A stretch of 48,712 bases of DNA from Bacteroidales bacterium (lineage in GTDB: Bacteria > Bacteroidota > Bacteroidia > Bacteroidales > VadinHA17). The translations under genes were made by a program, and so were the position numbers. Location: assembly GCA_021157415.1 (NCBI GenBank), contig JAGGWN010000094.1, positions 97,892 to 146,603 on the forward strand, written 5' to 3'. How positions within the stretch are numbered: the first letter of the stretch is position 1; each line of letters starts with the position of its first letter. Below are positions 24,231 to 33,696 of this stretch, in pieces. Under the pieces are notes generated by a model that saw only the letters and a list, made by a program, of their open reading frames with translations, was not told where the DNA came from and did no database searches.

Positions 24231-24320
24231 GTCTTTATAGAAGACAAAGGTTATAGGTTTATAACTAAGATTAGAAAAAGCAGGAGGAAAAGGGATTGTT
24301 CACGATCCCTTTTTCTTTTT
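24231..24320 (+). ncRNA. Candidate small structured RNA ending in an intrinsic terminator
   Basis: Two small hairpins, GTCTT/AAGAC (24231-24245) and GTTATA-GGTT-TATAAC (24250-24265), are followed by a strong terminator. The segment lies between two genes transcribed away from each other, so no annotated transcript needs the terminator. No good TAnnTTTG promoter is visible; TATATTGA near 24195 is the closest. The 5' end is undefined. Low confidence. Confidence 0.35.
24288..24320 (+). terminator. Intrinsic terminator in a divergent intergenic region
   Basis: AAAAGGGATTG (24288-24298) pairs with CGATCCCTTTT (24303-24313) across a TTCA loop, with one G-U pair, and is followed by a T-rich run to 24320. 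Orientation favours the plus strand; the minus-strand tail is weaker. No known gene ends here. Confidence 0.7.
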
Positions 24321-24327
24321 ATCCCAA

Positions 24328-24366
24328 ATGCGCAATAGAGTTATTGTAAATGGCTCTATTGCGCAT
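24328..24366. repeat. Perfect 13-base hairpin
   Basis: ATGCGCAATAGAG (24328-24340) and its exact reverse complement (24354-24366) flank a 13-base loop. The core GCAATAGA...TCTATTGC is shared in form with the hairpin at 24448-24480 and with the copy at 33656-33686. A perfect 10-base palindrome GGGTTAACCC follows at 24384-24393. Confidence 0.75.
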
Positions 24367-24397
24367 AAGCCGAAGGTTGCATTGGGTTAACCCTGAC

Positions 24398-24443
24398 AAG
24401 AAAATCATGGCATTCCATCAACATGGAATGCCATGATTTTCTT
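24398..24443. repeat. Perfect 21-base inverted repeat with 4-base loop
   Basis: Bases 24398-24418 are the exact reverse complement of 24423-24443, with loop CAAC. The left arm starts AAGAAAA and the right arm ends TTTTCTT, so on either strand the hairpin is followed by a T-rich end and could act as a bidirectional terminator. I found no second copy in the window. Confidence 0.85.
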
Positions 24444-24489
24444 CGTCAATTAAGCAATGGAATTTTTCTATTGCTTAATTTGGGTTTAT
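24438..24489. repeat. Hairpin repeat, copy 1 of a 52-base dispersed repeat
   Basis: Matches 33645-33696 over 52 bases with three differences. It contains the inverted repeat AATTAAGCAAT (24448-24458) and ATTGCTTAATT (24470-24480), followed by TGGGTTTAT. It lies directly upstream of the putP-like gene, whose start (24517) is 28 bases further on. REP/MITE-like in form; no transposase is nearby. Confidence 0.8.
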
Positions 24490-24516
24490 CTTTACCTTTC
24501 CAAAAAGATAAATATC

Positions 24517-25971
24517 ATGAACTATACGCTGATTGGTTTTATCGTTTACCTTGTATTGGTGTTACTCGTGGGTTTCCTGACCTACCATTCCAACAAATCC
24601 CACAAAGATTTTTTTCTTGCCGGACGAAAGCTGAATCCCTGGGTGGTAGCTTTTTCAGAAAGAGCTTCCGGCGAGTCGGCCTGGCTGTTAGTGGGCCTGC
24701 CGGGAGCCGCGCTGGCAGCGGGTTTCCTTCATGTATGGACGGCTATGGGTTGCGTACTGGGTATCATCTTTTATTGGTTTGTGATTGCCAAAGACCTGCG
24801 GGTTCAGTCGGAGAAATTTGATGCAATTACCCTGCCGAACTTTTTCTCCGAGAAACTGGGTGAAGGAGGGAATATTATCCGCATCGTGTCCTCTCTGATT
24901 ATTGTATTTTTCTTTACTTTCTACCTGGCAGCCCAGTTTAACGGTGCAGGGAAGGTATTGTTTGTGACTTTTCACATACCCACTTTCTGGGGCATTGTTA
25001 TTGGCGCTATCGTGATTATCTTTTATACGATGATGGGTGGATTTTTTGCAGTGGCGTGGACCGATTTTATTCAGGGGATCATCATGATCGGTACCCTTGT
25101 GATTCTTCCCGTAATCGGGCTGATCGAATTATCCGAAACAGGACATTCTCTGCGTCCGGCCGTACATATGGCCGGGCCCCATTATGCCAGTCTCACCGGT
25201 GGAGCAACAGGTCTTGCCGCCGTGAGTGTGGTACTGGGTGGGTTAAGCTGGTTCTTCGGTTATATGGGACAACCCCATCTGCTGACGAGGTTTATGGCCA
25301 TAAAGGACAGTGAGAAGATCAAGGTAAGCCGCCGCATTGCCATTGCCTGGGCTATCCCTGCCTTTACCGGCGCTTTTCTGATCGGTGTGATTGGCCTGGC
25401 TATGTTCGGCGAGGGACATTTTCAGGATGTGGAACAGGTTATGCCTGCCCTGGCCAATAACTTTCTTCCTGCCTGGCTCGCCGGAATATTTATCTCCGGA
25501 GCCATTGCCGCGATGATGTCTACCGCTGACAGTCAACTGTTGGTGATAACTTCCTCCGTAATAGAAGATTTCTATCATAAAACCCTGAAAAAAGAACTCT
25601 CTAACCGCGCTATGCTGACCTTTAGCCGGGGAATCACTGTATTGGTTGGGGTGTTTGCTTTCGTAATCGCCGTAACTTCTACAAAACTGGTTTTTGGTCT
25701 GGTGTCCTATGCCTGGTCCGGACTGGGTGCTTCCTTCGGACCTGCCCTGTTGTTGTTGCTGAAATGGAAGAAAACAAACTGGCAGGGCGTCTTGGCAGGC
25801 ATGATTACCGGTTCGGTCATTACAGTGGTCTGGTCAGAGATCAGTGTACTTGACCGGGCCCTGTCCGTCCGCTTTGCCTCTTTTGTCCTGGCTTTTGCCG
25901 CAGTCATGATTGTCTCTCTCATGACCGCAAATAAAAGAGAACCGGACAGGGTTACGGGAAAAGTTTTGTGA
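24517..25971 (+). CDS. putP: Sodium/proline symporter (SSS family, PutP type)
   Basis: A 484-residue sodium:solute symporter. The start at 24517 (MNYTLIGFIVYLVLVLLVGF) puts TM1 at the N-terminus as in PutP; the frame is open further upstream through the hairpin repeat, but those codons are not membrane-protein-like. Recognisable are FFLAGRKLNPWVVAFSERASGESAWLL (TM2, Na-site region, S/G rich), GGFFAVAWTDFIQG (TM5), and GAIAAMMSTADSQLLVITSSVIEDFY (TM8, second Na-site Ser/Thr cluster), with about 13 membrane spans. Family knowledge suggests proline as substrate. No putA is nearby. Confidence 0.88.
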   Translation: MNYTLIGFIVYLVLVLLVGFLTYHSNKSHKDFFLAGRKLNPWVVAFSERASGESAWLLVGLPGAALAAGFLHVWTAMGCVLGIIFYWFVIAKDLRVQSEKFDAITLPNFFSEKLGEGGNIIRIVSSLIIVFFFTFYLAAQFNGAGKVLFVTFHIPTFWGIVIGAIVIIFYTMMGGFFAVAWTDFIQGIIMIGTLVILPVIGLIELSETGHSLRPAVHMAGPHYASLTGGATGLAAVSVVLGGLSWFFGYMGQPHLLTRFMAIKDSEKIKVSRRIAIAWAIPAFTGAFLIGVIGLAMFGEGHFQDVEQVMPALANNFLPAWLAGIFISGAIAAMMSTADSQLLVITSSVIEDFYHKTLKKELSNRAMLTFSRGITVLVGVFAFVIAVTSTKLVFGLVSYAWSGLGASFGPALLLLLKWKKTNWQGVLAGMITGSVITVVWSEISVLDRALSVRFASFVLAFAAVMIVSLMTANKREPDRVTGKVL

Positions 25972-33217: not shown

Positions 33218-33667
33218 ATGGACGAAACCATTGAAGTGATCATCAAGAGACCCTGGCAGGGGACCGTACTGCCGGTTTTGCAGATATTAAAAGCCCTGGC
33301 TGTGGCAGGCATTTTGGCTGTTATGATGGCTGCAGGATTTGAAGGGTTTAAAGGGGGAGAGATGGGGTTTATGGTTGGTTTGGCCGGCGTGGGTGGCCTG
33401 GTCTTCCTGCTTCCGTTACTGATTGTAATGATCCTCATGATCATTGCTCTTTTTAAAGGTAGAAAATGGGCGGTGGTGGTTGCCTTAATCCTTTCTATAC
33501 TGGCGTTCTTTCCGGTTATATTTACTCTCGGGATAGGACCGGAAGCTTTTTTTCCCGTATGTATTATCTGGGGATTTACCCTGTGGCTGGTGATTGCCTG
33601 CCTGAAAAATCCTTTTTATGCAAAAAAATATACACCCAAGGAAATTTCTTCGTCCATTAAGCAATAA
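33218..33667 (+). CDS. Small integral membrane protein, unknown; 3' end lies in a repeat
   Basis: A 149-residue hydrophobic protein with about four membrane spans (around 20-40, 52-75, 82-100, 108-130) and a short basic C-terminal tail (KNPFYAKKYTPKEIS). No family recognised. The last residues (SSIKQ) and the stop codon are encoded by the left part of the hairpin repeat whose other copy is at 24438-24489. The repeat may have landed at the gene end and supplied the present stop. It probably shares a transcript with the metallophosphoesterase. Confidence 0.65.
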   Translation: MDETIEVIIKRPWQGTVLPVLQILKALAVAGILAVMMAAGFEGFKGGEMGFMVGLAGVGGLVFLLPLLIVMILMIIALFKGRKWAVVVALILSILAFFPVIFTLGIGPEAFFPVCIIWGFTLWLVIACLKNPFYAKKYTPKEISSSIKQ

Positions 33668-33696
33668 AATTTTTCTATTGCTTAATTTGGGTTTAT
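33645..33696. repeat. Hairpin repeat, copy 2
   Basis: Matches 24438-24489 over 52 bases with three differences. Inverted arms ATTAAGCAATA (33656-33666) and TATTGCTTAAT (33676-33686) enclose a 9-base loop. The left arm contains the stop codon of the preceding gene. As the hairpin is followed by ATTTGGG rather than a T-run it is a weak terminator at most. Confidence 0.8.

Follow-up and report, generated by a model that had tools for sequence, protein, structure and literature searches.

A hairpin cluster in front of putP in a marine Bacteroidales bacterium: a probable IS1380-type MITE with a middle hairpin probably perfected by template switching

In front of the transporter gene putP, a marine Bacteroidales bacterium carries three strong hairpins, placed end to end in a spacer of about 160 bases. 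The locus lies in a stretch of 48,712 nucleotides of contig JAGGWN010000094.1 (GenBank assembly GCA_021157415.1) which was analysed as a whole and is called the window below. Do these hairpins serve putP, or did they arrive from elsewhere? The first-pass annotation had considered the insulation of divergent transcription, a mobile REP/MITE hot spot and a structured leader of putP. The evidence assembled here makes it highly probable that the three hairpins together form one 162-bp MITE, belonging to an IS1380-type family, and that a template switch after insertion made its middle hairpin perfect. A puzzling group of hairpins thus becomes a readable insertion.

Architecture of the hairpin cluster

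Direct sequence reading and a repeat search established the perfect hairpins of 13, 21 (with a 4-base loop) and 11 bases and the palindrome GGGTTAACCC, all as first described. With the distance limited to 30, the search lists 13 inverted repeats of 14 nt or more in the whole window, among them these three and a fourth, separate one, the native hairpin at 24285-24316. The hairpins are real, but not separate: they are parts of one 162-bp element plus its TTTAT duplication (Table 1). Two features had been overlooked, the outer ends CCCAAAT/ATTTGGG, which match each other, and the TTTAT that flanks both of them, and the end given to the cluster at 24489 is the exact end of the right-hand TTTAT. 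The arms of hairpin 1 (24328-24340 / 24354-24366) enclose a 13-nt loop and extend inward to 18-nt arms at 89%; those of hairpin 3 (24448-24458 / 24470-24480) extend to 15 nt at 93%. The left module of the element also occurs alone, at L013, with a TTAAT duplication.

Table 1. Features of the putP spacer and related features in the window.
Feature	Position	Strand	Remarks
Native terminator-like hairpin with T-run	24285..24320	+	Just before the insertion; outside the element
Target-site duplication TTTAT, left copy (5 bp)	24318..24322	.	Single TTTAT in the empty site of G003
Probable MITE, 162 bp	24323..24484	+	Ends CCCAAAT...ATTTGGG; no transposase gene inside
Left terminal inverted repeat CCCAAATGCGCAATAGAG	24323..24340	+	Majority form over 12 copies: CCCAAATTGCGCAATAGAG
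Hairpin 1	24328..24366	.	Left terminal repeat plus its own inverted copy; 13-bp perfect arms
Small 4-bp hairpin AGCC-GAA-GGTT	24368..24378	.	Overlooked in the first-pass annotation
Palindrome GGGTTAACCC	24384..24393	.	Joins the left module to the remainder of the element
Hairpin 2	24398..24443	.	21-bp perfect arms 24398-24418 / 24423-24443; 4-nt loop
Hairpin 3	24448..24480	.	Right terminal repeat plus its own inverted copy; 11-bp perfect arms
ATG in frame with putP	24457..24459	+	Inside the element; from the ORF list
Right terminal inverted repeat CCCAAATTAAGCAATAGA	24467..24484	-	Minus-strand reading
Target-site duplication TTTAT, right copy	24485..24489	.	
Second copy, truncated	33645..33696	+	Right-end hairpin only, then TTTAT

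The 21-bp perfect stem exceeds the maximum of 12 bp (3-8 nt loops) in 12 resampled windows of equal dinucleotide statistics. Folded as RNA, a stretch of 174 nt reaches −87.9 kcal/mol, where 200 shuffles give −36.6 (sd 3.9), so that z = −13.1. In an alignment of 12 copies 96.8% of the cells are paired (shuffled 95.7%) and five pairs are changed on both sides (shuffled mean 1.3), the pairing structure having come from the consensus of the very alignment that was scored. Such retained pairing would also be expected from terminal repeats and template switching.

The native hairpin that precedes the element (arms within 24285-24316) is kept, as judged by eye, in several relatives with or without the element. 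Also by eye, its arms co-vary (window 24240-24320), reading GGGATTATTCACAATCCC in the related genome G006 and GGGATTGTTCACGATCCC in the window. Rfam returned no family at gathering score, sub-threshold matches only; with 18 bits, BTncRNA_FopS, at 24250-24321, fell short of its gathering score of 56, and this match was set aside.

Insertion at putP and at other sites

Two genus-mates of the host genome (G000) bear on the locus. The 98% complete genome G003, whose putP-site contig corresponds to JANTHB010000105.1, presents an empty site (L078): it reads CTTTTTATCTTTACC, where the window reads CTTTTTAT-[162 bp]-TTTATCTTTACC, and its putP spacer, ...CCCTTTTCTTTTTATCTTTACC..., holds one TTTAT and no insert. 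G006, on a contig judged to correspond to DRPN01000078.1, carries the element at the same putP site. This was the single full element among 79 loci with a putP relative, some of which stop short of the region upstream of putP. At L138 and L080 a 25-nt match to the right-end region lies elsewhere in the putP spacer (E 4e-4 and 0.018). Two more host sites (L003, L005) are without the element in G003, with flanks too diverged for a clean single target.

A short A+T-rich target is duplicated upon insertion, as a comparison of the flanks of the copies shows. Among 35 hand-curated elements of G000, G006 and G010, 22 are flanked by exact 5-bp duplications, whereas 20,000 permutations of the right flanks gave a mean of 4.09 and a maximum of 12. 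By length, the exact matches number none at 3 bp, one at 4, 22 at 5 and none at 6-8. Position 2 is T and position 4 is A in all 22 exact duplications, whose targets (TTTAT, ATAAA, ATTAT, ATAAT, ATTAA, TTAAA, TTAAT and TTCAT) follow WTWAW with one C as the exception. The 13 remaining curated elements lack an exact duplication; five of these are off by one base, and since the resulting total of 27/35 with at most one mismatch equals the permutation maximum of 27, the argument rests on the exact matches alone.

The curated set took the outermost reading per insertion, 32 being chosen by hand out of 62 candidate pairs; L054 was taken with its start shifted by one base, and a direct pattern search added L226 and L223. 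Where an element had further readings, inner or off by one, these were dropped, as were readings judged spurious (L004:827, L053:1470, L038:2340, L019:2369, L043:1473). L018 was left out for its 3 mismatches in the reading used, L008, L009, L011 and L069 because they offer nothing but inner or damaged ends, and L062 because it is the other haplotype of L066. The curated rows are partly dependent, as L001 and L052 represent the same site in two genomes. Because the elements had been chosen by hand, the test was repeated with a mechanical rule that took, for each cluster, the longest reading starting with CCC and ending with GGG, and that retained several wrong readings. Exact duplications were then found in 14/34 and missing from 20/34, against a permutation mean of 2.68 and maximum of 10; matches by length were one at 3 bp, two at 4, 14 at 5 and none at 6-8.

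As the first-pass annotation had proposed, BLAST was used to look for copies in the host and relatives, and dispersed copies were found. The host genome gave 79 matches to the element, in fewer places than that since the hairpin arms match both strands, and G006 gave 33. Besides the window copy, the host has five nearly full-length copies (87-90% identity) and two of about three quarters; its remaining matches cover the left part only or the right part only. At E <= 0.001 the element was matched in 3 of 40 genomes, the third, G010, belonging to a different genus (77% identical); at the same threshold G003 gave no match to the 164-base element. Short relatives made from the same ends also occur: single-hairpin forms span 38-54 bp and include 41-bp elements with (L026, L046) and without (L031) exact duplications and the 38-bp L226, which bears a second repeat type. 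The host has, in addition, a second, diverged MITE subfamily (L036, L039, L044, L049, L178) with terminal hairpins, a different middle part and ends such as CCCAAATTCCGCCATAGA / CCCGGTTTGCGCAATAGA.

By ORF setting, 32 insertions fall into convergent (10), tandem (9) and divergent (6) spacers, with no neighbour in the locus for 4 and overlap of an ORF edge for 3. No ORF of at least 120 aa (longest-first filter) is overlapped by more than 15 bp in 29/32, and the overlap at the window copy is due to an in-frame start inside the element. As judged by eye, the insertions at L188, L056, L049 and L223 lie right behind intrinsic-terminator-like hairpins with T-runs, as in the window; a preference for such targets is possible.

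Being too short, with 162 bp between the duplications, to hold a transposase gene, bounded by terminal inverted repeats, flanked by a target duplication with an empty site in a relative, and dispersed in copies, the element has the properties of a MITE. The mobile REP/MITE of the first-pass annotation thus holds as a MITE, and fails as a strict RAYT-mobilised REP.

Terminal repeats, the likely mover and the perfect stem

A candidate source of the ends was met in the same genus. G002 encodes an intact 442-aa transposase (NF033539, IS1380, 238.8 bits against a cut-off of 180; also PF13701) in a 1560-bp element with ends CCCAGATTACGCATTAGA, whose flanks agree in 4/5 bases. In G130 an intact transposase (NF033539, 256.6 bits, above the cut-off) lies in a 1402-bp element starting CCCAAATTACGCATTAGA. 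PF13701 occurs in 12 relatives and not in the host's own genome, which at first seemed to speak against IS1380; the matching G002 ends overturned this.

Of 198 genomes of the order, 7 contain the repeat CCCRRNTTNCGCAATAGA, that of the host included, and a reversed control pattern gave no match. It yielded 29 rows (5 from the host, 24 from outside), and in nine of these an IS1380-like N-terminus begins 54-77 bp inside the repeat (G174 six, G088 two, G127 one). The G174 N-terminus matches NF033539 at 1.3e-5 over 53 residues. NF033539 was not matched in G088, where 11-12 residues are visible before the contig end, or in G127, in whose copy no ORF reaches 120 aa. No transposase start is seen in 15 of the 24 non-host rows, some of which end too early to show one; six G130 rows (108-162 bp), L173, L175, L177, L184 and L186 are long enough, yet show none, and one G130 row, L187, is too short. 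Facing repeats 2666 bp apart in G145:C1 were tried as a candidate autonomous element; they enclose a 422-aa ORF and a response regulator, with no recognised transposase between, and the pair was therefore set aside.

A MITE does not strictly need a matching transposase in the same genome. A search for the IS1380 family at E <= 0.001 found no transposase in the draft assemblies G000 and G006 or in G010, and with none seen in these copy-bearing genomes we infer mobilisation in trans from the similarity of the ends. Of the marks of an IS1380-derived element, matching ends and a 5-bp duplication were found, and a transposase in the same genome was not. The MITE was probably moved by an IS1380 transposase supplied in trans. 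Within this family ISEcp1 makes 5-bp duplications, called A+T-rich, and can use a right end that merely resembles its own (PMC2887853); ISPme1 and ISEcp1 mobilise adjoining DNA through end misrecognition (PMC9330008).

The first-pass annotation had taken the perfection of the arms for recent origin or selection. A comparison of the middle hairpin, which can be recognised in 18 copies (13 distinct sequences), points elsewhere: its longest perfect stem measures 21 bp in the window copy and 4-9 bp in each of the 17 others, so the perfect arms are private to the window copy. In the G006 copy at the same site the left arm reads ...AATCTTACATTCCAT, the loop GTTG and the right arm ATGGAATGCCATGATT..., while the window copy has left arm ...AATCATGGCATTCCAT, loop CAAC and the same right arm. 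If the left arm and loop of G006 are rewritten as the reverse complement of its loop and right arm, the window sequence results letter for letter, and all seven edits between the two copies are replaced by one predicted template switch. Because the predicted product equals the window exactly, a template switch is preferred, and would account for the perfect 21-bp stem more readily than recent origin or selection would. Intermolecular template switching has been described, in yeast REG2 (PMC8604942), as leaving homogenised arms and an inverted spacer. There, as is proposed here, the arms were made identical and the spacer inverted in one event; unlike in yeast, the present case comes from an uncultured bacterium, concerns a mobile element and is read from the same-site copies in two genomes. 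A perfect hairpin is usually taken as a mark of selection, and that one replication error fits better here is a caution for structured-RNA and terminator predictions. The G006 haplotypes C27 and C163 differ in an inverted 3-base loop in hairpin 3 (AAA vs TTT), which is very short.

In the sequence, two terminal repeats of the CCCAAATTNNGCAATAGA type are each followed by their own inverted copy, giving a hairpin at each end, with a separate long middle hairpin between. The following history is proposed. An IS1380-family transposase would have recognised these repeats and mobilised the MITE in trans, duplicating an A+T-rich 5-bp target upon insertion. The MITE would lie upstream of putP solely because the T-rich tail of the native terminator-like hairpin offered TTTAT. 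After insertion, in this lineage, a polymerase template switch would have copied the right arm and loop over the left arm and loop.

For putP itself the element poses a risk of misannotation. Its in-frame ATG makes the predicted putP ORF 20 residues longer; the native start is probably at 24517, 32 bp beyond the end of the element, since in both G003 and G006 the ATG of MNYTL occupies this position. Any effect on putP, whether through a hybrid promoter, a longer N-terminus or RNA structure, would be incidental. A search with a Bacteroidetes promoter consensus gave one weak match (TTG, 19 nt, TACCTTTC, 24471-24500), for which no promoter is claimed.

The ends of the G006 elements vary further. 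A module of some 60 bp, CCCAAGTNTTATGAATTG...TTTTTAGAGG, whose end is the second repeat type (CCCAAGTNTTATGAATTG), replaces the terminal CCC of several type-1 elements at either end and can also cap the left module at its inner GCATTGGG end. The module is matched 19 times in G006 and once, partially, in G000; G003 and G010 gave no match. At one G006 locus two haplotypes (C163 L245:1-404; C27 L246:4732-5196) show the same insertion, one with the cap and one lacking it, and the same ATTAA duplication; at the putP site it is present in G006 and absent in the window. Six capped elements elsewhere have exact duplications (L054, L060, L066, L072, L074, L223), and the capped element at the putP site, L052, has a duplication with one mismatch. 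That the elements form a set of interchangeable hairpin end caps and not a fixed MITE is a speculative reading which we consider rather unlikely. If true, template switching or conversion would swap ends in situ, the same transposase would go on to use them, and new transposon ends would arise without new transposition. Solo cap copies in G006 show no evident duplication by eye; several (L211, L216, L218, L220, L222, L225) have a clean CCC end and a variable other side, and at the junction of L218 about 290 bp present in G000 are missing.

Alternative readings and known systems

Elements of REP/BIME type, moved by a RAYT (Y1) transposase and strewn as hairpins between genes, resemble the family in being short, hairpin-rich and intergenic (29/32 insertions), and the family includes single-hairpin versions of 38-54 bp. 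A target duplication, however, would not be expected of a Y1 element. The exact 5-bp duplications here differ among copies and match within a copy, so a strict REP does not fit, and the terminal repeats match the DDE-type IS1380; this origin is very improbable. Least probable of all, to a degree that leaves it hardly any weight, is a structured leader, attenuator or insulator for putP and the divergent ABC gene, kept by selection. The very stable fold, the paired cells and two-sided changes over 12 copies, and the location between divergent genes would fit such a role, but the element is cleanly missing from the G003 ortholog, occurs at 1 of 79 putP-relative loci (some not reaching upstream) and belongs to a family that also sits in convergent and tandem spacers. 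Neither the structured leader first suggested for putP nor the insulation of divergent transcription finds support in this distribution. Absence of the hairpins from the same locus in other strains had been named as a sign of neutral junk; G003 is without them and G006 has them, a pattern that speaks against a conserved regulatory role at putP.

More weight, though still little, goes to the idea that the element is a MITE as described and that G003 had the insertion and lost it precisely, by seamless excision or TTTAT slippage. The insertion is common to G000 and G006 and absent from G003, while identities at the loci are mixed: on the metK side G000 is closer to G003 (89.5%) than to G006 (85.4%), which favours a loss, and on the putP side (91.9 vs 88.3%) and at a second locus (95.2 vs 88.4%) it is closer to G006, which does not. 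Seamless excision is described for piggyBac (PMC7351741), to which IS1380 has been used as an outgroup (PMC10813416). As G003 has no match to the element at E <= 0.001, such a loss would need to be genome-wide, and we consider it improbable. An insertion into a site still empty in G003 remains the preferred reading.

Among known systems, the BOX elements of Streptococcus pneumoniae consist of modular hairpin blocks in varying combinations. The likeness lies in the modular plan; the modules of the present family share IS1380-type ends and duplications. Porphyromonas gingivalis, which belongs to the same bacterial order as the host, also has a MITE (PMC4596501). MITEPye1 of Paracoccus yeei, linked to IS1182, is likewise small, with terminal and direct repeats and no transposase, preferentially intergenic and able to form stem-loops (PMC11578231). 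The transposase family and the ends set the present family apart from both these MITEs, and so do its unusually small forms of 38-54 bp, which consist of scarcely anything beyond two terminal repeats facing each other and occur alongside full ones. In the passages of open-licence literature covered, we recognised no description of an IS1380-derived MITE.

Also among the closest known systems are the IS1380 insertion sequences themselves (NF033539; ISEcp1, ISPme1). In members of this order they share with the MITE terminal repeats of the CCC(A/G)(A/G)ATTNCGCAATAGA type, and also 5-bp duplications, A+T-rich for ISEcp1 (PMC2887853). Unlike them, the MITE has no transposase and measures 162 bp, against 1402 and 1560 bp, and each of its terminal repeats is doubled into a hairpin, with a middle hairpin added. 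It is a new IS1380-type MITE family from uncultured Bacteroidales, of an already familiar kind.
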